This document shows, piece after piece, positions 30,993 to 43,095 of a DNA stretch of 49,803 nucleotides (positions are counted from its first letter, which is position 1; each line of letters begins with the position of its first letter). The translations under genes and the position numbers were made by a program. The notes beneath the pieces are model-generated. The model was not told where the DNA came from. It saw only the letters and a list, made by a program, of their open reading frames with translations, and ran no database searches. The stretch spans positions 1-49,803 of the forward strand of contig NZ_LRRB01000013.1 in NCBI RefSeq assembly GCF_001646865.1, read 5' to 3'. Source of the DNA: Aldersonia kunmingensis. GTDB lineage: Bacteria > Actinomycetota > Actinomycetes > Mycobacteriales > Mycobacteriaceae.

Positions 30993-31988
30993 ATGACGTT
31001 CTCCGCGATGGTGGCCCGGGAATCCGACGACAAGATCGTGCTCGCCGCAGAGCAGGTCGAGGAGGATTTCCTCCCGGCCGGCGAAGTGACGATCAAAGTG
31101 CACTACTCGAGCGTGAACTACAAGGACGCGCTCGCGGTCACCCCGAAGGGTGGCGTGGTGCGCGAGTACCCGATCATTCCCGGCATCGATATTGCCGGTG
31201 AAGTTGTTGCGTCCGAGGATGATTCGTTCGCCGTCGGCGACCAGGTGGTTGCCCACGGTTACGACATCGGCACGGCCCGCCACGGCGGTTACGCCGAGCT
31301 CGCCCGCGTCCCGGCCGGGTGGGTGGTGAAGCTCGACGGGCTCACCACGCGCGAGGCCGCGGCAATCGGCACCGCCGGGTTCACCGCCGCGCTCAGCGTG
31401 CAGGCGCTGCTCGACCGCGGCCTCACTCCCGACGCAGGTCCGGTGCTGGTCACGGGCGCGAGCGGTGGTGTCGGCAGCGTGAGCGTCGACCTGCTCGCGG
31501 CGAACGGTTTCGAGGTCATTGCATCGAGCGGCAAGGCCGACGCGAAGGACCTGCTGAGCAGCCTCGGTGCCGCATCGGTGATCGGCCGCCTGCCCGAGGA
31601 TCCGGACGCCAAGCCTCGGCCGCTGGGCAAGTCGCAGTGGGCGGGCGCCGTGGATTGCGTCGGCGGCGCGACCCTCGCATATGTCATCAGCACGCTGAAC
31701 TGGGGTGCGGCGGTCGCTGCGAGCGGCAACACCGGCGGTATCGGCCTGTCCACCACGGTGCTCCCGTTCATCCTCCGTGGCGTCGACCTGATCGGCATCG
31801 ACTCGGTGCAGTTGCCGATGGAAATCCGGCGTCGCACCTGGGCGAGCCTCGCCGCCGACCTCAAGCCACGCCATCTCGGCGACCTCGAGCGCCTCGTCGC
31901 GGTTCGCGACGTGCCCGGCGTGCTCGACGAGATCAGGCGCGGGGAGCGCACCGGGCGTGCCGTCGTGGACGTCCACAGCGGATTCTGA
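30993..31988 (+). CDS. acrylyl-CoA reductase-like MDR oxidoreductase (AcuI/YhdH)
   Basis: A 331-residue zinc-independent medium-chain reductase. VHYSSVNYKDALAVT, PGIDIAGEV and the NADPH-binding VTGASGGVGSVSVDLLAANG are the AcuI/YhdH signatures. The family reduces acrylyl-CoA or other alpha,beta-unsaturated carbonyls with NADPH, detoxifying electrophiles. Start ATG 30993. The start is immediately downstream of a perfect 26-bp palindrome, so expression is likely repressed until a reactive compound appears. Convergent with the ABC exporter gene. Confidence 0.88.
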   Translation: MTFSAMVARESDDKIVLAAEQVEEDFLPAGEVTIKVHYSSVNYKDALAVTPKGGVVREYPIIPGIDIAGEVVASEDDSFAVGDQVVAHGYDIGTARHGGYAELARVPAGWVVKLDGLTTREAAAIGTAGFTAALSVQALLDRGLTPDAGPVLVTGASGGVGSVSVDLLAANGFEVIASSGKADAKDLLSSLGAASVIGRLPEDPDAKPRPLGKSQWAGAVDCVGGATLAYVISTLNWGAAVAASGNTGGIGLSTTVLPFILRGVDLIGIDSVQLPMEIRRRTWASLAADLKPRHLGDLERLVAVRDVPGVLDEIRRGERTGRAVVDVHSGF

Positions 31989-32014
31989 CGCGTGCAGTGG
32001 CGCGCTAGCGGGTT

Positions 32015-33910
32015 TTAGCTCGCGTTGACGAACTCTGCGCCGTTCGCCCCGTCCTCCTGGAACTGCGTGCGGTAGAGCTGCTCGTAGCGCCCCCGCGCTG
32101 CGAGCAGCTCGGAGTGCGTTCCGTTTTCGATCACTCGGCCGTCCTCAATCACGAGGATCGCGTCGGCGGCACGAATTGTGGACAGCCGGTGCGCGATCAC
32201 CAGCGCGGTCCGTCCAGCCAGCGCCTCGCTGAGCGCCTCCTGCACCGCGGCCTCGGATGTGGAGTCCAACGATGCCGTGGCCTCGTCCAGGATCACCACC
32301 CGCGGCTGCTTGAGCAGCAACCGCGCGATGGTCAGTCGTTGCCGCTCGCCTCCGGACAGTCGATAACCACGTTCGCCGACGACCGTGGCCAGACCATCCG
32401 GCAGCGAAGCCACCAGATCCCCTAGCCGCGCACGCTCCAGCGCCTCCCACAGCTCGGCGTCGGTCGCTTCGGGCCGCGCAAGCTGCAGGTTCCCGCGGAT
32501 CGTGTCGTGGAAAAGGTGCCCGTCCTGGGTCACCATGCCGACGGTTTCCTGGATTGCCTGCGCGGACAGATCCCGGACATCGACACCGGATAGCCGGACT
32601 GCGCCGGAGTCGACGTCGTAGAGGCGCGAAATCAATTGCGCGATAGTCGACTTACCAGCACCCGACGAACCGACCAATGCGATTACCTGGCCCGGCTCGG
32701 CATGCAACGAAATCCCGTGCAGCACTTCGTCTCCGCCGCGACTGTCCAGCGTTGCCACCTCCTCGAGCGAGGCAAGCGACACCTTGTCGGCGGCCGGGTA
32801 GGCGAACCGGACGTTGTCGAGTTCCACTGAGACCGGGCCTACGGGCACCTTCCGCGCATCGGGCTTGTCGGTGATCAACGGATTCAGGTCGAGCACCTCG
32901 AATACCCGCTCGAAGCTGACCATTGCGCTCATTACCTCGACCCGTGCGCTCGCCAGCGCGGTGAGCGGTGCATACAGCCGGGTGAGCAACAGCGACAAGG
33001 CCACGACCGAGCCGGCGTCGAGTTGGCCCCGTAGTGCGTAGAAGCCGCCGAGTCCGTAGACGACGGCCACCGCGAGGGCCGACACCAGCGTGAGCGAGGT
33101 GACGAACACGGTCTGCACCATCGCGGTGCGCACACCGATATCGCGCACCCGGCTGGCCCGGGCGGCAAACTCGGCGGATTCCTGCCCCGGACGGCCGAAC
33201 AGCTTGACCAGCGTGGCGCCGGGAGCCGAGAACCGCTCGGTCATCTGTGTGCTCATCGCGGCATTGTGGTCCGCAGCCTCCCGCTGGATGCCGGCCAGTC
33301 GGTTCCCCATCCGGCGCGCCGGCAGCACGAACACCGGGAGGAGCAGCAAGGCGAGCAGCGTGATCTGCCATGAGATACCGAGCATCACGACCAGCGTCAG
33401 GACGAGGGTGACGAGGTTCGCGACAACTCCGGACAGGGTGTCGCTGAATGCGCGCTGTGCACCGATGACGTCGTTGTTCAGCCTGCTCACCAGCGCGCCC
33501 GTCCGGGTACGGGTGAAGAAGGCGATCGGCATGCGCTGCACATGATCGAAAACCGCGGTACGCAGGTCGAGGATCAGGCCCTCGCCGATGCTCGCCGACA
33601 GCCACCGGGTGACCAGGCCGAGCGCTGCGTCGAACACCGCGATCAGGCCGATCAGCAATGCGAGCCGGACCACGACTTCCGGGGCGGCGCTTTCCGTGAT
33701 CGCGTCCACGACCCGGCCGGCGAGGACTGGCGTTGCCACTGCGAGGATCGCGCTGACGACGCTGAGCACCAGGAATCCGGCGAGCATTCGCTTGTGCGGG
33801 CGCGCGAACCCGCCGATCCGCCGCAGCGTGGCCATCCGGAACGGCCTCCGCTCGTCGGGCGCGTTGGCCCGCCGGTACATCTGGTTCCACGCCACCGATT
33901 CGATACTCAT
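32015..33910 (-). CDS. ABC-type exporter, fused permease and ATPase
   Basis: A 631-residue half-transporter with six transmembrane helices (residues about 40-330) and a C-terminal nucleotide-binding domain: Walker A VGSSGAGKST, Q-loop VTQDG, signature LSGGERQRL, Walker B VVILDEATAS and H-loop IAHRLS. It would function as a homodimer exporting lipids, peptides or drugs. ATG 33910 (MSIESVAWNQMYRR) has GGGAG 6 nt upstream; the frame is open a further 45 codons through the promoter. The promoter has a MerR/SoxR-type arrangement. Divergent from the FAD/Fe-S oxidase. Confidence 0.9.
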   Translation of the reverse strand: MSIESVAWNQMYRRANAPDERRPFRMATLRRIGGFARPHKRMLAGFLVLSVVSAILAVATPVLAGRVVDAITESAAPEVVVRLALLIGLIAVFDAALGLVTRWLSASIGEGLILDLRTAVFDHVQRMPIAFFTRTRTGALVSRLNNDVIGAQRAFSDTLSGVVANLVTLVLTLVVMLGISWQITLLALLLLPVFVLPARRMGNRLAGIQREAADHNAAMSTQMTERFSAPGATLVKLFGRPGQESAEFAARASRVRDIGVRTAMVQTVFVTSLTLVSALAVAVVYGLGGFYALRGQLDAGSVVALSLLLTRLYAPLTALASARVEVMSAMVSFERVFEVLDLNPLITDKPDARKVPVGPVSVELDNVRFAYPAADKVSLASLEEVATLDSRGGDEVLHGISLHAEPGQVIALVGSSGAGKSTIAQLISRLYDVDSGAVRLSGVDVRDLSAQAIQETVGMVTQDGHLFHDTIRGNLQLARPEATDAELWEALERARLGDLVASLPDGLATVVGERGYRLSGGERQRLTIARLLLKQPRVVILDEATASLDSTSEAAVQEALSEALAGRTALVIAHRLSTIRAADAILVIEDGRVIENGTHSELLAARGRYEQLYRTQFQEDGANGAEFVNAS

Positions 33911-33953
33911 CCCACACTCCCGTCGTGCCCTCGTAGTGAAGCACTGACCACCG

Positions 33954-33984
33954 ACGGTAAAACCTCGACTTAACTTCAGGTCAA
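33954..33984 (-). promoter_or_regulatory. MerR/SoxR-type promoter of the ABC exporter
   Basis: On the minus strand TTGACC (33979-33984) and TACCGT (33954-33959) are separated by 19 bp, the long spacer peculiar to MerR-activated promoters. A dyad ACCT...TTAA...AGGT (33962-33981) fills the spacer and resembles SoxR sites. Predicted leader about 35 nt. Confidence 0.6.
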
Positions 33985-34009
33985 GCGCGGACCGCCCTAC
34001 TCTTATTCC

Positions 34010-36772
34010 ATGACGGCGGCGCGGATTGGCCTGCCCCTCGCTCACCTGCGGGCCCAGCTCGCGGGCGACGTCGACGACTCACCTCGACGCCGCGCGGAAT
34101 ACTCGTCCGATGCGTCGAACTATCGGGTCCCGCCGTTAGCGGTGGTGTTCCCACGCAGCGGGGACGATGTGGCGGCGACGCTGGACTTCGCTCGTTCGCA
34201 CGGCGTAACACTGACCGGTCGCGGCGGCGGCACATCCGTCGCCGGAAACGCCATCGGTCCCGGGCTCGTCCTCGACTTCAGTCGCCATCTCGGTGCCGTG
34301 CTCGAACTCGATCCGGATGCCCGTCGCGCGATCGTGCAACCGGGCATCGTGCTCGCCGACCTGCAGCGCGCGGCAGGAGTGCATGGGCTGCGCTTCGGCC
34401 CGGATCCGTCCACCGCGTCACGCGCCACTGTCGGCGGGATGATCGGCAACAACGCCTGCGGGCCGCGTGCCGCCGCGTGGGGACGAACTTCGGACAATGT
34501 TGTCACCATTCGCATCCTGGACGGATCGGGCACCGAGCGCGTTCTCGGCCCCGGGCTCGACGGCATTCCCGGACTCGACCGGTTCGTCCAGCACAACCTT
34601 GCCGCCATCCGTACCGGGCTCGGCCATTTCGATCGGCAGGCCTCCGGCTATTCGCTGGAACACCTCCTACCCGAACGTGATCCGAATACCGCCCGCGCAT
34701 TTGTCGGGACCGAGGGAACGTGCGGGCTGATTCTCGACGCGACCATCGACCTGGTGCCGATTCCGCGCGCGACGACCCTCGTGGTGCTCGGCTATCCCGA
34801 CCTGGCCACCGCTGCCGAGGACACGGCGACGGTGCTCGAATTCGCTCCCACGGCGATCGAGGGACTCGATGCCCGACTGGTCGACGTCGTGCGCACCCAT
34901 CGTGGCGCAGTACCCGACCTACCGCGCGGAGACTGCTGGTTGTTCGTCGAAGTCGCTGGGGAGTCACCTCACGAAAGCTCCTCTCATGCAGCTGGTTTGG
35001 CCGCAGCGGCCCATGCGCTCGACGCCCGGGCGGTGCACGACCGAGCCGAAGCCGCGACCCTCTGGCGGATCCGCGCGGACGGGGCAGGGCTGGCGGGACG
35101 CACCCCGGATGGCGCACCGGCGTGGCCGGGGTGGGAGGACGCCGCGGTGCCGCAGCGCAATCTCGCGGCGTACCTACGCGACTTCGCCGTTCTCACACAT
35201 GACCACGGCGTGGACGGCCTGCTGTACGGGCACTTCGGCGACGGCTGCATCCACGTGCGACTCGACCTGCCGATTTCTCACGCACCTCAGCGGTTCCGCG
35301 AGTTCCTTGTCGACGCCGCGAAACTGGTTGCAGCGCATGGCGGCTCGCTGTCAGGAGAGCACGGCGACGGCCGTGCCCGGTCCGAACTGCTCCCATTGAT
35401 GTACGCCCCGGAGGTGATTGCGGCATTCGAAGGCTTCAAAGGGATATTCGATCCCGACAACGTTTTGAATCCGGGGGTGCTGGTCACGCCTCGCCCAGTC
35501 GATGCCGATCTGCGGCTCGCAGCCATCGTCGGTAAGCACGACCCCGACCTCTCGGCTGCCGTGCACCGTTGCGTCGGCGTTGGCAAATGCCGCTCATCCA
35601 CCGCAGACGGCGGGTTCATGTGTCCGTCCTACCGTGCGACTCGCGACGAACGCGACAGCACCCGCGGCCGGGCACGGGTGTTGCAGGAAGTCATCAACGG
35701 CTCGCTGCTCGCACCGGACTGGTCGTCGACAGCGGTCGAGGAATCCCTGGACCTATGCCTGTCCTGCAAGGCCTGCGCCGCCGATTGCCCGGCCGGTGTG
35801 GATATGGCCGCGTACAAGGCCGAGGTACTGCATCGTCGGTACCGCCGCCGGGTCCGCCCAGTCACGCACTACTCGCTCGGCTGGCTACCGCGGTGGCTGC
35901 GCGCTGCCAGGGCGGCCCCGCGTGCGGCCAATGTGCTGGCCAGGCGGGACGGACTACGCCGGCTCGCGGGCGTCGACCCGCGGCGGCCCGCACCCAGGCT
36001 GGCCGCCGAGCCGTTCCGCGCATGGTGGAAACACCATCGTGGCCACGTCGCCCAGGCCCCGGTGATGCTCTGGAGCGACACGTTCACCAACGCATTTCGT
36101 CCGGAGGTCGGTATCGCGGCCACAGAACTACTCGAATCGCTCGGCCATTCGGTCACCATTCCCGGACGGCAGGTGTGCTGTGGCCTGACCTGGATCAGTA
36201 CCGGCCAGCTCGACGGCGCGCGCAGGCAACTGCGCCGGACACTGGACGCGCTGGCGGACCACGTCGACGCGGGTGGTGTGGTCATCGGCCTCGAGCCGTC
36301 GTGCACCGCGGTGCTGCGCTCGGAGCTGACTGTGCTGCTTCCGGACGATCCCCGTGTGGCTCGCGTGGCGGTAGCTACACGAACGCTGGCCGAGTTCCTC
36401 ACCGACCAGTCGGGCTGGTCGCCGCCGCGTCTGGACGGCATGGAACTGGTGGTCCAGCCGCACTGCCACCAATATGCGGCACTTGGCTTCGGGCCCGACC
36501 GGGCACTACTCGAGCGCACCGGAGCGCGGGTTCAGCAGATCTCGGGGTGCTGCGGGCTGGCCGGGAACTTCGGGATGGAACGCGGCCACTACGAGGTGTC
36601 GGTCGCGGTCGCGGAGACCGGTCTGCTCCCGGCGATTCGCGGCGCCGGCACAGCGGCACTGCTGGTGGCGGACGGTTTCTCCTGCGCCACACAAGCCGAG
36701 CAATTAACTGGGTTCAGGGGTATGCATCTTGCCGAGTTATTTCGGGATACGCAGGCAAATGCTAGCGATTAG
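34010..36772 (+). CDS. FAD-binding and Fe-S domain oxidase (GlcD-GlcF-type fusion, D-lactate dehydrogenase-like)
   Basis: A 920-residue fusion. The N-terminus is a FAD_binding_4 domain (VVFPRSGDDVAATLDFARSHGVTLTGRGGGTSVAGNAIGPG) and FAD-oxidase C-terminal domain (LYGHFGDGCIHVRLD, SGEHGDGRARS). It continues with a 4Fe-4S pair (CVGVGKC and CLSCKACAADCP) and two cysteine-rich CCG domains (QVCCGLTW, GCCGLAGNFGME). Family members oxidise D-2-hydroxy acids such as D-lactate or D-2-hydroxyglutarate and pass electrons to quinone. Interesting next to the LhgO gene at the other end of the window, though 34 kb apart. Start ATG 34010; full length for the family. Confidence 0.88.
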   Translation: MTAARIGLPLAHLRAQLAGDVDDSPRRRAEYSSDASNYRVPPLAVVFPRSGDDVAATLDFARSHGVTLTGRGGGTSVAGNAIGPGLVLDFSRHLGAVLELDPDARRAIVQPGIVLADLQRAAGVHGLRFGPDPSTASRATVGGMIGNNACGPRAAAWGRTSDNVVTIRILDGSGTERVLGPGLDGIPGLDRFVQHNLAAIRTGLGHFDRQASGYSLEHLLPERDPNTARAFVGTEGTCGLILDATIDLVPIPRATTLVVLGYPDLATAAEDTATVLEFAPTAIEGLDARLVDVVRTHRGAVPDLPRGDCWLFVEVAGESPHESSSHAAGLAAAAHALDARAVHDRAEAATLWRIRADGAGLAGRTPDGAPAWPGWEDAAVPQRNLAAYLRDFAVLTHDHGVDGLLYGHFGDGCIHVRLDLPISHAPQRFREFLVDAAKLVAAHGGSLSGEHGDGRARSELLPLMYAPEVIAAFEGFKGIFDPDNVLNPGVLVTPRPVDADLRLAAIVGKHDPDLSAAVHRCVGVGKCRSSTADGGFMCPSYRATRDERDSTRGRARVLQEVINGSLLAPDWSSTAVEESLDLCLSCKACAADCPAGVDMAAYKAEVLHRRYRRRVRPVTHYSLGWLPRWLRAARAAPRAANVLARRDGLRRLAGVDPRRPAPRLAAEPFRAWWKHHRGHVAQAPVMLWSDTFTNAFRPEVGIAATELLESLGHSVTIPGRQVCCGLTWISTGQLDGARRQLRRTLDALADHVDAGGVVIGLEPSCTAVLRSELTVLLPDDPRVARVAVATRTLAEFLTDQSGWSPPRLDGMELVVQPHCHQYAALGFGPDRALLERTGARVQQISGCCGLAGNFGMERGHYEVSVAVAETGLLPAIRGAGTAALLVADGFSCATQAEQLTGFRGMHLAELFRDTQANASD

Positions 36773-36787
36773 CCGAACCCGGACAAG

Positions 36788-36820
36788 AAAAAGCCCGGAG
36801 CATTCCGCCCCGGGCTTTCG
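36788..36820 (-). terminator. intrinsic terminator of the 36-aa gene
   Basis: On the minus strand AAAGCCCGG and CCGGGCTTT (9-bp stem, 11-nt loop) are followed by TTCTTG, giving CTTTTTCTT. It starts 8 bp after the small gene's stop. In the plus direction only three T's follow, so it serves the small gene better. Confidence 0.8.
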
Positions 36821-36827
36821 TTGCGCG

Positions 36828-36938
36828 TCAGCTGCCGAAAGGCAAGACGCCGGGCGCGAGGTAGTAGCCACCGCTACCGGCGGACAGGTTGCCCCACTGA
36901 CCCAGCAACCAGTTGATCGCATTCGTAATCGGGTACAT
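36828..36938 (-). CDS. hidden 36-residue small protein, no known family
   Basis: A complete small gene: ATG 36938 preceded by AAAGGTAGGAA at ideal distance, 36 codons, TGA 36828, then a strong intrinsic terminator 8 bp on. The peptide begins MYPITNAINWLLGQWGN and ends in a Gly/Ser/Tyr-rich stretch, LPFGS last. It is hydrophobic with no charged residue that I can see, has no signal peptide, and could form a short amphipathic or membrane-lying helix in residues 4-16. Small leaderless channel-forming peptides (PorA/PorH) are known in mycolate bacteria; membership here is only a guess. It has its own promoter region divergent from pirin. Confidence 0.75.
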   Translation of the reverse strand: MYPITNAINWLLGQWGNLSAGSGGYYLAPGVLPFGS

Positions 36939-37049
36939 TTCCTACCTTTCGTTAATCGGGTCACGTTGTTCGGCGACCCCATTTGCTCGCTATTCCGCAG
37001 CGCTGACCCCAAGCGCACTCCACCTACGGTACCTGAATTCGTAAAAGGC

Positions 37050-37073
37050 TCATGCGGACTCTGTGGCGCATGA
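37050..37073. promoter_or_regulatory. dyad before the pirin gene
   Basis: TCATGCG (37050-37056) and CGCATGA (37067-37073) are perfect 7-bp arms with a 10-nt spacer, ending 7 bp before the pirin ATG. Possible repressor site. Confidence 0.35.
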
Positions 37074-37080
37074 TTGAGAC

Positions 37081-38076
37081 ATGAGCAATCTCGAAGCGAC
37101 AGCGGACGTGGTTACCTGCCCCGAGACGGACGGCACCGAGCATCCCAACGCCCCGGTTGAGGTGATCACTCCGCGTAGTGTGCCGCTCGGCGGACTGCGC
37201 GCGATGCCGGTCCGGCGCACCCTTCCGCAGCGGGCGCGCTCACTGATCGGAGCATGGTGTTTCGCCGATCACTACGGCCCCGACGACGTCGCGACCACCG
37301 GCGGAATGGTGGTGCCGCCGCATCCGCACACGGGATTGCAGACTGTTAGCTGGCTGTTCGAAGGCGAGATCGAGCATCGGGACAGCACCGGCGTCCACGC
37401 GATGGTTCATCCCGGCGAGCTCAACCTGATGACCGCCGGCCGCGGCATCGCGCACTCGGAGATTTCCACCGAGCGCACCACCGTCCTGCACGGCGCCCAA
37501 CTCTGGCTCGCGCTGCCCGACGATGCCCGCGACACCGCGCCGGGCTTCCAGCACTACGCACCGACGCCGATCGAGGTGCCCGGGGCGCGGCTGAGCGTGT
37601 TCCTCGGGACGCTGGCCGGCGATACGTCGCCCGTGCAGACCTTCAGTCCACTTCTCGGCGCCGAGATCACCGTCGAGCCCGGTGCACGGGTGGCGCTCGA
37701 TATCGATGAGCATTTCGAACACGGCGTGCTCGTCGACACCGGGGCGCTGCTGTTGGACGGAGCCCGGATCGAGCGCTCCGAGCTCGGCTATCTCGCTCCC
37801 GGGCGGCGGCAGGTTGTGCTGCGCAACCCCACCGCGGCGCCCACCCGCGCGTTGCTGCTCGGCGGCACACCGTTCGGCGAACAGATCATCATGTGGTGGA
37901 ACTTCGTCGGTCGCGCCACCGAGGAGATCAAGTCCTACCGCCGGCAGTGGCAGGCCGAGATCGGTGATGCGGAGGCGGGTGCACCGGACGGGACGCGGTT
38001 CGGCCCGGTGTCTGGCGGCCGCAGCCCGATCCCCGCGCCCACGCTTCCGAACGTGTCGCTCAAGCCGCGCAGCTGA
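37081..38076 (+). CDS. pirin family protein
   Basis: A 331-residue bicupin. The N-terminal cupin has the metal-site PPHPHTGLQTVSWLFEGEIEHRDSTG (His-x-His and Glu/His) followed by LMTAGRGIAHSE, both hallmarks of pirin; the second half is the pirin C-terminal domain (RALLLGGTPFGEQIIMWWNFVG). Pirins are iron-containing and include quercetin dioxygenases and redox-responsive regulators; the role here is unknown. Start ATG 37081. Followed by the DUF389 gene at 21 bp. Confidence 0.9.
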   Translation: MSNLEATADVVTCPETDGTEHPNAPVEVITPRSVPLGGLRAMPVRRTLPQRARSLIGAWCFADHYGPDDVATTGGMVVPPHPHTGLQTVSWLFEGEIEHRDSTGVHAMVHPGELNLMTAGRGIAHSEISTERTTVLHGAQLWLALPDDARDTAPGFQHYAPTPIEVPGARLSVFLGTLAGDTSPVQTFSPLLGAEITVEPGARVALDIDEHFEHGVLVDTGALLLDGARIERSELGYLAPGRRQVVLRNPTAAPTRALLLGGTPFGEQIIMWWNFVGRATEEIKSYRRQWQAEIGDAEAGAPDGTRFGPVSGGRSPIPAPTLPNVSLKPRS

Positions 38077-38097
38077 GTCACGGCCCAAACTGACAGG

Positions 38098-39060
38098 GTG
38101 CTGCATCTGCGCATCCTGTCGCCTGCTGCCTTGACCGACGAGGTAGTCGCCATCCTCGATTCCGACCCGGCCGTGAGCGGCCTGGCGATCGTGCGCGGTG
38201 CCGCTGTCCGCCCGGCTGGGGACGTGGTGCTGGCAGACCTCGCACGTGAGGCCGCCAACGACATCGTGGAACGGCTGCGGGCCACCAAGGTGCATCGGGA
38301 AGGCAGCATCGAGATCGACCCCGTGCCGACCTTCATTTCGCAGGCGGGCTTCGAAGCGGAACTGCGCACACCGGGCAGTAGCGCCGACGCGGTGGTGTGG
38401 GCCGAGGTCGCGCAACGCTCCTACGACGACAGCGAACTCAACTGGACGTTCCTGAGCTTCCTGACGCTGGCGACGATCATCGCGAGCATTGCGATCATCG
38501 TCGATTCGCAGATCCTGGTGATCGGCGCGATGGTGCTCGGACCCGAGTTCGGACCGATCGCCGCGCTGGGGGTCGCGCTCGTCAAGAAGAGGTTCGTGCT
38601 GTTCGGGCTCGCGGTACGCACGTTGGTGATCGGGTTCTTCGTCGCGATCAGCATGACCATCGTGCTGGCCCTGATCGGACGTGCGATCGGGTGGATCACC
38701 GTCGAGGACGTCACGGGACCACGACCGGAGACCGCGTTCATCTACACCCCGGACAAGTGGTCGTTCATCGTTGCGGTGATCGCCGCCGCGGCAGGCGTGC
38801 TGTCGCTGACCTCGTCCAAGGTCGGCGGTCTGACGGGTGTCTTCATCTCGGTGACCACCGTGCCCGCGGCGGGCAATATCGCGCTCGGCGCCGCGTTCGG
38901 TGTGGGCCACGAGGTGTGGGGCAGCATGGCGCAGCTCGGGGTGAACCTCACCGGTATGGCCGTCGCGGGCTGGGCGACGCTCGCCCTGCAGAACGCGCTG
39001 TGGTCGCGGGTGTCACCGCGCCGTCCGCGAGCCATGACCCGGCCGTACCGCATGCTCTAG
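38098..39060 (+). CDS. DUF389 membrane protein
   Basis: A 320-residue protein: an N-terminal soluble domain of about 100 residues (MLHLRILSPAALTDEVVAILDSDPAVSGLAIVRG is the region) and about six transmembrane segments with the family's ATIIASIAIIVDSQILVIGAMVLGPEFGPIAALG motif region, where IxDSxxxxIGAMxxxP is conserved. DUF389/TIGR00341 proteins are of unknown function, possibly transport. Start GTG 38098 has ACAGG just upstream. It lies between pirin and a DNA glycosylase, all one strand. Confidence 0.82.
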   Translation: MLHLRILSPAALTDEVVAILDSDPAVSGLAIVRGAAVRPAGDVVLADLAREAANDIVERLRATKVHREGSIEIDPVPTFISQAGFEAELRTPGSSADAVVWAEVAQRSYDDSELNWTFLSFLTLATIIASIAIIVDSQILVIGAMVLGPEFGPIAALGVALVKKRFVLFGLAVRTLVIGFFVAISMTIVLALIGRAIGWITVEDVTGPRPETAFIYTPDKWSFIVAVIAAAAGVLSLTSSKVGGLTGVFISVTTVPAAGNIALGAAFGVGHEVWGSMAQLGVNLTGMAVAGWATLALQNALWSRVSPRRPRAMTRPYRML

Positions 39061-39073
39061 GCTTCCCACCAGT

Positions 39074-40009
39074 ATGTTTTCCCCGCAAGAGCAGGTCGGC
39101 GCACAGGAGCGGGTGCTGCACACCCCGATTCCGGTGAATCTGGCCGCGACACTCTCGCCGCTGAGCCGAGGACGCGGGGACCCGTGCCATCACGTCAGCA
39201 CCGACCGCTCGATCTGGCGCACCTCCCGCATGCCGACCGGCCCGGTGACGTACCGACTGCGTCAACGCGGCAGGCATGAGGTGCGCGCCCAGGCCTGGGG
39301 GCCCGGCGGCGAGGAGCTTCTCGATCAGCTGCCGGACATGCTGTGCCTCGATGAGACACTCGACGACTTCGCGCCCGAACATCCGAAGATCATCGAGGCA
39401 CACCGGCGCCACCCGGACCTGCGCATGCTGCGTACTCGACGGGTGTTCGAGGCATTGGTGCCCGCGATTCTGGAACAGAAGGTGCACGGAGTCGCGGCCC
39501 GCGCATCGTGGCGCCATCTGGTGCGGCGCTTCGGCGAGCACGCCCCGGGACCGGCACCCGAAGGGATGCGCGTACCGCCCAGCGCCGAGGACTGGCGGCG
39601 GGTCCCGTCGTGGGAGTTCCACCGCGCCAATGTCGATCCGCGCCGCGCCCGCACGATCGTGACCGCCGCGCGGCTCGCGGACCGGCTCGAACTGTTGGCC
39701 GGGCTTCCGCCGGCGCAGGCACAGCATCGGCTGCAGACCGTGCCGGGGATCGGGATCTGGACTGCTGCCGAGGTGGCCCAGCGCGCCTTCGGCGACGCCG
39801 ATGCGTTGTCGGTCGGCGATTTTCATCTCGCGTCGATGGTCGGCTGGACACTGCTGGGCCGCCCGATCGATGACGACGAGATGGTCGAGTACCTGAAACC
39901 GCTACAGCCGCACCGCTATCGCGCGGTGCGGCTGCTCGAGATCAGCGGGCAGGTGGTGCTGCCGAGGTTCGGCCCGCGGACGCCGGTAACCGACCACCGC
40001 GGGCACTGA
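39074..40009 (+). CDS. AlkA-type DNA-3-methyladenine glycosylase
   Basis: A 311-residue HhH-GPD glycosylase. The helix-hairpin-helix LQTVPGIGIWTAAEVAQRAFGDADAL is followed by SVGDFHLASMVGWTLLG, in which the Asp is the catalytic residue. The N-terminal 100 residues are the TBP-like beta domain of AlkA. It removes alkylated bases in base-excision repair. There is no Ada domain. Start ATG 39074, 13 bp after the DUF389 stop, so likely in the same transcript. Convergent with FabG, with a small hairpin between. Confidence 0.82.
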   Translation: MFSPQEQVGAQERVLHTPIPVNLAATLSPLSRGRGDPCHHVSTDRSIWRTSRMPTGPVTYRLRQRGRHEVRAQAWGPGGEELLDQLPDMLCLDETLDDFAPEHPKIIEAHRRHPDLRMLRTRRVFEALVPAILEQKVHGVAARASWRHLVRRFGEHAPGPAPEGMRVPPSAEDWRRVPSWEFHRANVDPRRARTIVTAARLADRLELLAGLPPAQAQHRLQTVPGIGIWTAAEVAQRAFGDADALSVGDFHLASMVGWTLLGRPIDDDEMVEYLKPLQPHRYRAVRLLEISGQVVLPRFGPRTPVTDHRGH

Positions 40010-40902: not shown

Positions 40903-43095
40903 TCACTGTGCCGGGCGTGCCGACTCGGCCAGCACCAAGGCCATCGAGCGGCGGATCGTTTCGCACACGACGGCGGTGTTCGGGTCCGGAGCCTGGCTCG
41001 CCATCGTCGTCCAGGTGTCGATCTCGGCTCGCGCCAGACCGATCAGGGCGATCGACCCGGTGCCGCCGGTGGTGGACGGGTGAGCGCCGACCCGTTGCTC
41101 GAGCAACTGCTTTGCCATGTCGAGGTAGTGGCCATTCAACTGGGTGAGGCCGCCGCTGATGATCGCCAGAGCCCGCAGTTCGTTCACTGCATGCATCATT
41201 GGCAGCCGCCGAAACGCCGCTATCCGCTCTTCCACCCAGCGCCGATCCGGTGCGGCGACATTGGGTTCGTTCGCAATTCGATGCAGCGACTGCAGGATTC
41301 GCGCAACCGTGTGCAGCCGAGCCGGTGCGAGGTACAGCGTTTCCATCGATTCGCGCAATTGCTTCATCCCGGTCAGGATGCGCAGCGTGCTCACCACATC
41401 CTTGGCGGTGCAACCCGAGTCCAGTGCGTCGCACAACTGCTGGACCATCGGGATGCCCAGGTAGCCGACCAGCCAGGCGTGACCATAGCGCGGTATTCCA
41501 TAGGAATTGATGCGCTTCGACGTGTCATCCTCCAATGCCCGCCGGCGAGCGTTCGAAGACCGGCCGGCGAGTAGGCGAATCCACTCCGCCTGCTCCGGGC
41601 CGACCTCCCCAACCCGGGCCATCGCGGCGATTTCAACGATCAGACCGCACTGCACGAAACCCGGATTCCGGCCGCCGAATGCCTGTGTGAGGTTCGGCGG
41701 CAGACGGTCGAATCCTCTACTGGCGCAGAATAACCCGACCGCCGGCAAGACCAGATCGAAGGGATCATCGGGCGGGTTGAAGAACTTTGAGAGTGTCTCC
41801 CATTCAACGTAGTCGAGTTGGCCAGGACCGAACACGAACACCGGGGCGTCGTAATCGGGAACCAGCGGCGGGCGATCGGTGTCGAAGTCGTTCGTCCCCG
41901 TCAGCAGTGGCTGGTCGATGAGATCGAAGGAGCGCAGTGGCGCGAGGTCCACGCCGACGTCGAGGCGGGTGAGCCGGCGGGGACCGAACTCGACCGTGTC
42001 GTAGTGATCGGCGGTCACGGTGATCGGGAAGGGTTCGCCGGTAACCGGGACTCCCTGCACCTGAAACCTTCGCGCCCAGTGGTAGCGCACCGGCACATTG
42101 GTCGGCCGATGCACACCGAGTACGCGCGACCCCAGTAGGGCATCAACCAGTGCCCGACGCTCCGGTCGCGGACGCCCCACCAGGGCGATCGTGAACTTCC
42201 GCTTGAGACTTGCCTGCAACTCGGCGATCGAGCCTCCCGAGACCGATCCGAGGCGACTCTTTGACTCCTTCAGGACGCGGGTCAGTTCGTCGAAGAGATC
42301 GACCGGGGGTGTCGGCCCCTGGCCACGCAATCGCAAGGCTTTGGTCGCCGCGTCCGCGAGCGCGCCGCACGTGTCGTAACGCCGTTCCGGGGCGCTGGAC
42401 ATCGCCTTCTTGATCACCGCCGCGAACGCCCCTGTTGGTTCGAGCGCCCCACTCGCATTCGGCGGATCTCCGGTCAGGAGGTAGTGGAACGTCGCACCGA
42501 GGGCGAAGACGTCGGCACGCTCATCGACCTCCAGAGCCGGGTTGTACTGCTCCGGTGCGGAATAGCCCGGCGAGACCAGCAACATTGTCTGCGGCGTACC
42601 CATCGCCTTCGCGATCCCGAAGTCGGCGAGTAGGACGCGTTCCGCCTCGCCGTGCTCGGCACGGCGGATGAGGATATTCGCGGGCTTCACATCGCGGTGC
42701 ACGATGCCGTGTCGGTGCGCGTGATCGAGCGCTTCGGCAACCTCGCGCAGCACTCGCACGGCCCGCGGCGGCGGCATCGGTCCGTGGCCGATCACCTCGT
42801 CACGGGCGCTCACACCGGCAACGAATTGCATGGAAATCCACAGGCAGCCGTTCTCGTTCCCCCGGTCGTGGACCGTCACGATGTTGGGATGATCGAGCAG
42901 CGCGACATGGTCGGCTTCTTCCTCGAACTTGTGCCGTGCGTGCTCCTCGGAATTCCGCAGTAGCTTCAATGCGACCGATTTCGGCAGATTCGGATGACGG
43001 GCGCGATAGACCACACCGAATCCGCCCTCGCCAAGACGCTCCTCGATTAGATAGCCGGCGAAGGCGTCTCCTGGGTTGAGGTCGAACGGGCCCAC
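40903..43095 (-). CDS. Ser/Thr protein kinase fused to a degenerate dynamin-like GTPase domain
   Basis: A 730-residue protein. Residues 15-275 are a complete Hanks kinase: glycine loop RLGEGGFGVVY, Lys44, HRD at 133-135, DFG at 158-160, SAPEQ at 179-183. No transmembrane segment follows, unlike PknB. From about 298, KFTIALVGRPRPERRALVDALLG looks like a dynamin/IniA-type P-loop whose GxxxxGKS has become GRPRPERR; a G2-like PTNVPVRYHW and a G3-like FDLIDQPLL follow at plausible spacing. The rest is helical as in bacterial dynamin-like proteins. I infer a kinase with a pseudo-GTPase regulatory domain. Divergent from the secreted protease gene. Kinase call firm, GTPase resemblance moderate. Confidence 0.75.
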   Translation of the reverse strand: MGPFDLNPGDAFAGYLIEERLGEGGFGVVYRARHPNLPKSVALKLLRNSEEHARHKFEEEADHVALLDHPNIVTVHDRGNENGCLWISMQFVAGVSARDEVIGHGPMPPPRAVRVLREVAEALDHAHRHGIVHRDVKPANILIRRAEHGEAERVLLADFGIAKAMGTPQTMLLVSPGYSAPEQYNPALEVDERADVFALGATFHYLLTGDPPNASGALEPTGAFAAVIKKAMSSAPERRYDTCGALADAATKALRLRGQGPTPPVDLFDELTRVLKESKSRLGSVSGGSIAELQASLKRKFTIALVGRPRPERRALVDALLGSRVLGVHRPTNVPVRYHWARRFQVQGVPVTGEPFPITVTADHYDTVEFGPRRLTRLDVGVDLAPLRSFDLIDQPLLTGTNDFDTDRPPLVPDYDAPVFVFGPGQLDYVEWETLSKFFNPPDDPFDLVLPAVGLFCASRGFDRLPPNLTQAFGGRNPGFVQCGLIVEIAAMARVGEVGPEQAEWIRLLAGRSSNARRRALEDDTSKRINSYGIPRYGHAWLVGYLGIPMVQQLCDALDSGCTAKDVVSTLRILTGMKQLRESMETLYLAPARLHTVARILQSLHRIANEPNVAAPDRRWVEERIAAFRRLPMMHAVNELRALAIISGGLTQLNGHYLDMAKQLLEQRVGAHPSTTGGTGSIALIGLARAEIDTWTTMASQAPDPNTAVVCETIRRSMALVLAESARPAQ

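Follow-up and report, generated by a model that had tools for sequence, protein, structure and literature searches.

A 36-codon gene under protein-level selection in Nocardia, Rhodococcus and their relatives, and its possible place among leaderless mycomembrane peptides

An open reading frame between an oxidase gene and a pirin gene

ORFs (open reading frames) of 36 codons are common in GC-rich DNA, and in the 49,803-nucleotide stretch of Aldersonia kunmingensis DNA analysed here (the window), 74 ORFs of at least 30 aa overlap positions 34000-40000. One minus-strand ORF, in the gap between two plus-strand genes, had been proposed in an original prediction to be a real small-peptide gene, which raises the question of whether it is indeed a gene and, if so, what its product may do. 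The reading of the locus itself was confirmed: an ATG lies at 36938 on the minus strand, the final sense codon extends to 36831 and a TGA follows at 36830-36828, giving a product of 36 aa, with a ribosome site upstream. The peptide is also uncharged, as had been claimed, the window copy having no K, R, D or E. The features of the locus are as follows.

34010-36772, plus strand: convergent neighbour, FAD-linked oxidase / Fe-S protein
36789-36819, minus strand: intrinsic terminator-like hairpin, 13-bp stem and 5-nt loop, into TTTTT (36792-36788)
36828-36938, minus strand: 36-codon gene MYPITNAINWLLGQWGNLSAGSGGYYLAPGVLPFGS, TGA included, from the ORF reading and homologues
36939-36949, minus strand: Shine-Dalgarno region AAAGGTAGGAA, directly 5' of the ATG, with GAAAGG six bases before the ATG
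37026-37031, minus strand: candidate -10 hexamer TACCGT, 93 nt before the ATG, on weak evidence
37081-38076, plus strand: divergent neighbour, pirin

The window copy is solitary, flanked by the FAD/Fe-S oxidase and pirin genes. The hairpin begins 8 nt past the stop codon, its stem arms occupy 36819-36807 and 36801-36789 with G-U pairs included, and in a folding computation it reached -26.7 kcal/mol compared with -15.3 for shuffled sequences (z -3.95). The 9-bp stem described originally proved to be the perfect core of this longer stem. A consensus scanner called no terminator at the peptide gene, probably because its rule counts T residues only after the stem, and no sigma-70 promoter either. 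Elsewhere in the window, an ORF at 40903-43095 (minus strand) resembles, by eye, a serine/threonine protein kinase (GEGGFGVVY).

Occurrence, conservation and gene context in related genomes

A 33-member profile was used to search 401 genomes sampled from the GTDB family to which Nocardia and Rhodococcus belong. At E 0.01 it matched 128 genomes, of which 120, from 11 of 31 genera, were accepted as true at E 4.7e-6 or better, with values reaching 1e-22; the eight weak genomes (E 0.0023-0.0084) were excluded, the locus having been inspected in one of them (G156). A single-sequence search recovered 119 of the 401 genomes at E ≤0.1, the worst of these having E 2.9e-4. The peptide was present in both genomes of Aldersonia, the genus of the window (2/2), in all 37 genomes sampled from the Rhodococcoides group (g6), in 122 of 148 Nocardia genomes (g22) and in 18 of 28 Rhodococcus genomes (g23). 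It was not found in 26 Nocardia and 10 Rhodococcus genomes, counts that are upper bounds because in many genomes the profile scored part of the first-look candidates (at most 19 per genome in the 401-genome family search and at most 53 in Nocardia), and from these absences we take the peptide to be dispensable. A pattern scan of GTDB contigs yielded at least 120 loci and, among those listed, which came from Nocardia, Rhodococcus, Rhodococcoides, Prescottella, Aldersonia, Antrihabitans, Skermania and Millisia, every one encoded the peptide. The gene is nearly always present as a single copy. On contig C1 of one genome (G333; L069 and L070) there are two copies with identical flanking gene predictions, perhaps through an assembly duplication.

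An order-wide profile search of 298 genomes, part of them from the same family, gave 41 genomes with a match at E 0.1; the eight strong ones all lay within the family, the remaining 33 (E 0.0039 or worse) were at chance level, and eight weak loci that we inspected contained no family member. In the 401-genome search, genus g3 gave no match better than E 0.0032; g3 is probably Corynebacterium, since a PorA query matches 6 of its 81 genomes. Genus g29, by our assignment probably Mycobacterium, gave chance-level matches only, both order-wide and in the family search. The phages searched gave no match, and the plasmids one, to a 2.66-Mb N. farcinica record. As far as we searched, the peptide family appears to be restricted to the GTDB family holding Nocardia and Rhodococcus.

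To look at the genomes lacking the peptide, we chose ten of the misses (eight Nocardia, one g10 and one g21), and all ten kept a match to the FAD/Fe-S gene. One Nocardia genome (G677, L228) retains a degraded vestige of the peptide gene on the minus strand near position 1436, beside the FAD/Fe-S oxidase gene and readable only in its C-terminal part, and the remaining nine loci gave nothing better than E 2 over the short stretches examined. The g10 miss says little, because in those g10 relatives that have the gene it sits elsewhere.

The frame is conserved in Nocardia and Rhodococcus, and substitutions favour synonymous sites, in agreement with the comparison of relatives by which the original prediction was to be judged. 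Across 61 sequences and 34 columns, mean pS and pN were 0.405 and 0.119 within genera and 0.542 and 0.268 between genera, with pN below pS in more than 99% of 1825 differing pairs and values of 0.449 (pS) and 0.134 (pN) for the window copy against Aldersonia sp. NBC_00410; all of these figures are descriptive, as pS is near saturation and the pairs are non-independent. Variability at the third codon position was 0.442, compared with 0.275 and 0.200 at the other two. A chance ORF, which the abundance of such frames in GC-rich DNA might have suggested, was rejected, the intact frames in the 120 family genomes and the family-wide profile matches leaving this reading a negligible probability. These comparisons make it almost certain, in our judgement, that the 36-codon ORF is a real gene under protein-level selection, and both the distribution and the synonymous bias bear out the small-peptide gene that had been proposed.

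The signals around the gene were compared across the same relatives. The start codon is ATG in 60 of 63 loci and GTG in three, the stop codon is TGA in 65 of 69 (some loci having been fetched twice) and 62 of 63 loci have a purine-rich site no more than 20 nt from the start. Of 63 loci, 30 carry the hexamer TACC[GC]T at 35-95 nt upstream, compared with a shuffle mean of 1.15 and a maximum of 5, with one occurrence in 20 Nocardia loci and none in three Antrihabitans loci; it is a plausible candidate for a -10 element. By inspection, a GGTACC[GC]T-type hexamer recurs upstream in several genera, possibly as a -10 without a clear -35, and several Nocardia upstream regions instead share a TTGTAAC...GATAAT-like layout, as judged by eye. 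Downstream, the folding z value was below -2 in 49% of the 63 loci, but in none of five in g10 and two of 11 in g23. Given this uneven distribution of both hexamer and downstream folding, the layout of the gene is not uniform across genera.

Genomic context was examined in 40 loci from 39 genomes, chosen for genus diversity and with ORFs picked by a crude GC rule; an ancestral neighbour was defined as a gene from the 30993-40009 part of the window, matched at 60% identity or higher within 5 kb of the peptide gene. At least one such neighbour was kept in 15 of the 40 loci (g1, g16, g21, g22, g26 and g31) and none in the other 25. The next downstream predicted gene (at least 100 aa) was convergent in 21 loci and on the same strand in 19, and the upstream predicted gene, by the same size limit, was divergent in 30. 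With neighbourhoods that change around a protein that is kept, the gene has moved in the manner of a free-standing unit. In Aldersonia sp. NBC_00410 (G001, contig C17, L032) the peptide gene was found between pirin and ABC transporter genes, with the FAD-linked oxidase gene not adjacent.

The peptide and its possible functions

The family peptides are about 31-36 aa long, with the consensus MITNALNWLLGAWGGVSAGSSGYQIPPGTLPFGS. Among 70 distinct proteins, 68 fit 34 alignment columns, and the two left out are shorter, one of them being without P31. Ten positions are unchanged in all 68 aligned proteins (M1, T3, N7, L10, G19, S20, G22, G28, P31 and G33), including an invariant Gly-Ser-x-Gly motif that is followed by a Pro/Gly tail, and conservation spans the full length with no variable core. 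The window copy carries two extra residues after Met, and in it Gly stands where the motif has its second Ser, a change seen in no other of the 68. Lys or Arg occurs in one of the 70 distinct proteins and Cys in none, and net charge ranges from 0 to -3. No signal peptide is visible in the family peptides, as judged by eye. The hydrophobic moment of residues 2-15 was 0.409 against a permuted-column mean of 0.186, a value reached in 0.25% of 2000 permutations, and these residues are predicted to form an amphipathic helix. An AlphaFold2 model from 33 sequences places a helix at residues 3-21 (block means of pLDDT 82 and 76) before a loose tail (approximately 59), with an overall mean of 70.1.

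Searches of family libraries gave chance-level results for Pfam with the window peptide and 33 members (best E 0.013) and for PHROGs with the 33 members (best E 0.067). The window peptide alone had no match in NCBIfam and a best E of 3.8 against PDB sequences, the AlphaFold2 model had no Foldseek match in the PDB, and our literature searches found no published description of the peptide. Although the peptide is present throughout the sampled Rhodococcoides group and in most of the sampled Nocardia genomes, none of Pfam, NCBIfam, PHROGs and the PDB offered a convincing counterpart.

The gene product is probably a very small peptide located in or on one of the membranes of the cell envelope. Our working interpretation, which we hold tentatively, is that of a leaderless peptide of the mycomembrane or envelope, possibly mycoloylated on the invariant Ser and similar in kind to PorA and PorH. 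The peptide would be synthesised with no signal peptide, roughly the first 20 of its residues would form an amphipathic helix in or across a lipid layer, and it would be exported by a route common to PorA, PorH and ProtX. A mycoloyltransferase would then place a mycolate on the invariant Ser of a flexible A-G-S-S-G-Y/F turn and so anchor the peptide in the mycomembrane, where several copies might assemble into a small channel or serve as a mycomembrane anchor, the conserved Pro/Gly tail (xPGTLPFGS) contacting other copies or the cell wall. O-mycoloylation is described as occurring on Ser, less often on Thr, among Gly, Ala and Ser residues in flexible stretches (PMC11066868), and Gly-Ser-x-Gly with its invariant Ser20 is a compatible candidate site; since the same source describes no strict consensus, the Gly/Ser turn is weak evidence for the modification. 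Cmt1 is reported there to have close orthologs in Nocardia and Rhodococcus and no strict ortholog in mycobacteria. In the genome of the window we found 24 Esterase-family matches, 21 of them above cut-off, and the two mycoloyltransferase-like proteins tested resembled C. glutamicum PS1 and Cmt1 more than antigen 85, both scoring higher with PS1 than with Cmt1. The working interpretation is weakened by this precedence of PS1 over Cmt1, by the modest confidence of the AlphaFold2 model and its lack of a PDB counterpart, by the dispensability of the peptide and by the Gly that replaces the second Ser in the window copy.

The same helix could instead belong to a small inner-membrane or peripheral protein that binds the plasma membrane from the cytoplasmic side, or a membrane complex, and is never exported, for which SpoVM and CydX are models. 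We consider this a real possibility, if a somewhat doubtful one. Both the lack of a visible signal peptide and the predicted amphipathic N-terminal helix would fit it, the conserved tail at the C terminus might serve to bind a protein partner and the gene neighbourhood differs from genus to genus, as would that of a free-standing regulator, whereas the near absence of Lys and Arg is unusual for a helix on the anionic inner membrane and the family is confined to mycolic-acid bacteria, although this is true of much else in them. Small size would likewise suit a secreted signal peptide, bacteriocin or modified-peptide precursor, and two of 33 members touch Pfam AgrD, though at E 0.1, which is chance level; conservation over the full length, the absence of Cys and the lack of consistent partner genes, with the ancestral neighbourhood seen in 15 of 40 loci and not in 25, make such a precursor improbable.

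A leader (attenuation) peptide, or a passenger ORF of a regulatory RNA, might be suspected from the hairpin that directly follows the ORF in the window and from the loci (19 of 40) whose next predicted gene shares the strand of the peptide gene. This we regard as very unlikely, as that next gene is convergent in the other loci and in the window, the window has no Rfam match at gathering scores, and the changes are biased towards synonymous sites, which indicates that the protein is what selection keeps. Hardly to be expected either is a hydrophobic type I toxin, which would also be tiny, hydrophobic and solitary, but which accords poorly with a gene that seldom occurs in more than one copy and is found in every sampled Rhodococcoides-group genome, with a strongly conserved tail and almost no Lys or Arg, and with the lack of any match in phages or in plasmids other than the N. 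farcinica record.

If the peptide is indeed located in the mycomembrane, it would offer a small, tractable substrate for asking by what means proteins lacking a signal sequence pass the plasma membrane of mycolic-acid bacteria, which PMC12632848 calls unclear, and how widely protein mycoloylation extends beyond C. glutamicum, a question raised in PMC11066868.

Comparison with PorA, PorH and other mycomembrane proteins

PorA (45 aa) and PorH (57 aa) of C. glutamicum are described as residing in the mycomembrane without signal sequences and as carrying mycolates on serine (PMC11927696, PMC12632848 and PMC11066868), and a 37-aa channel former without a presequence has been reported from Corynebacterium (PMC5944148). 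The comparison with PorA and PorH made in the original prediction holds for the kind of protein, i.e. fewer than 60 aa, no visible signal peptide, an amphipathic helix and a Gly/Ser-rich site, but not for homology or for the paired locus. Alignment by hhalign gave probabilities of 0.6%, 0.3% and 0.4%, and hence no homology, in a test to which so short a family gives little power. The porA and porH genes are usually paired between groEL2 and a polyphosphate kinase gene (PMC5944148), whereas the peptide gene of the window is solitary at the FAD/Fe-S oxidase-pirin locus. As homology was tested and not found, and as the locus differs, we do not claim membership of PorA/PorH for the peptide family. 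PorA and PorH also have two helices, unlike the one predicted helix and Pro/Gly tail of the present family.

The described channels of Nocardia and Rhodococcus are MspA-like (PMC9233653), so that no porin is missing there, which counts against our working interpretation of the peptide. These MspA-like porins occur in the same genera as the peptide, but by description they are set apart as far larger proteins (213 and 267 aa in R. ruber) of the beta-barrel type with a signal peptide (PMC9233653).

The likeness to PorA and PorH of C. glutamicum, and to PorACj and PorACur, lies in the length below 60 aa, the lack of a signal peptide, the amphipathic helix, the Gly/Ser-rich turn with a conserved serine and the origin from mycolic-acid bacteria. 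In PorA this serine, S15, is invariant in all five aligned sequences and is described as lying within the short linker that joins two model helices (PMC11927696). ProtX of C. glutamicum is described as a mycomembrane protein with no identifiable signal sequence (PMC12632848) and, by that description, would belong to the same proposed class of signal-less mycomembrane proteins. Size, helix, motif and host range match the picture drawn by PorA, PorH and ProtX, and make a consistent, if unproven, case for a mycomembrane peptide. It is conceivable, though we think it less likely than not, that the family is an independently evolved second lineage of leaderless mycoloylated helical peptides, which in Nocardia and Rhodococcus would assemble in the mycomembrane, in which case the PorA-type system of Corynebacterium would be one of several and signal-less export to the outer membrane would be general in mycolic-acid bacteria.
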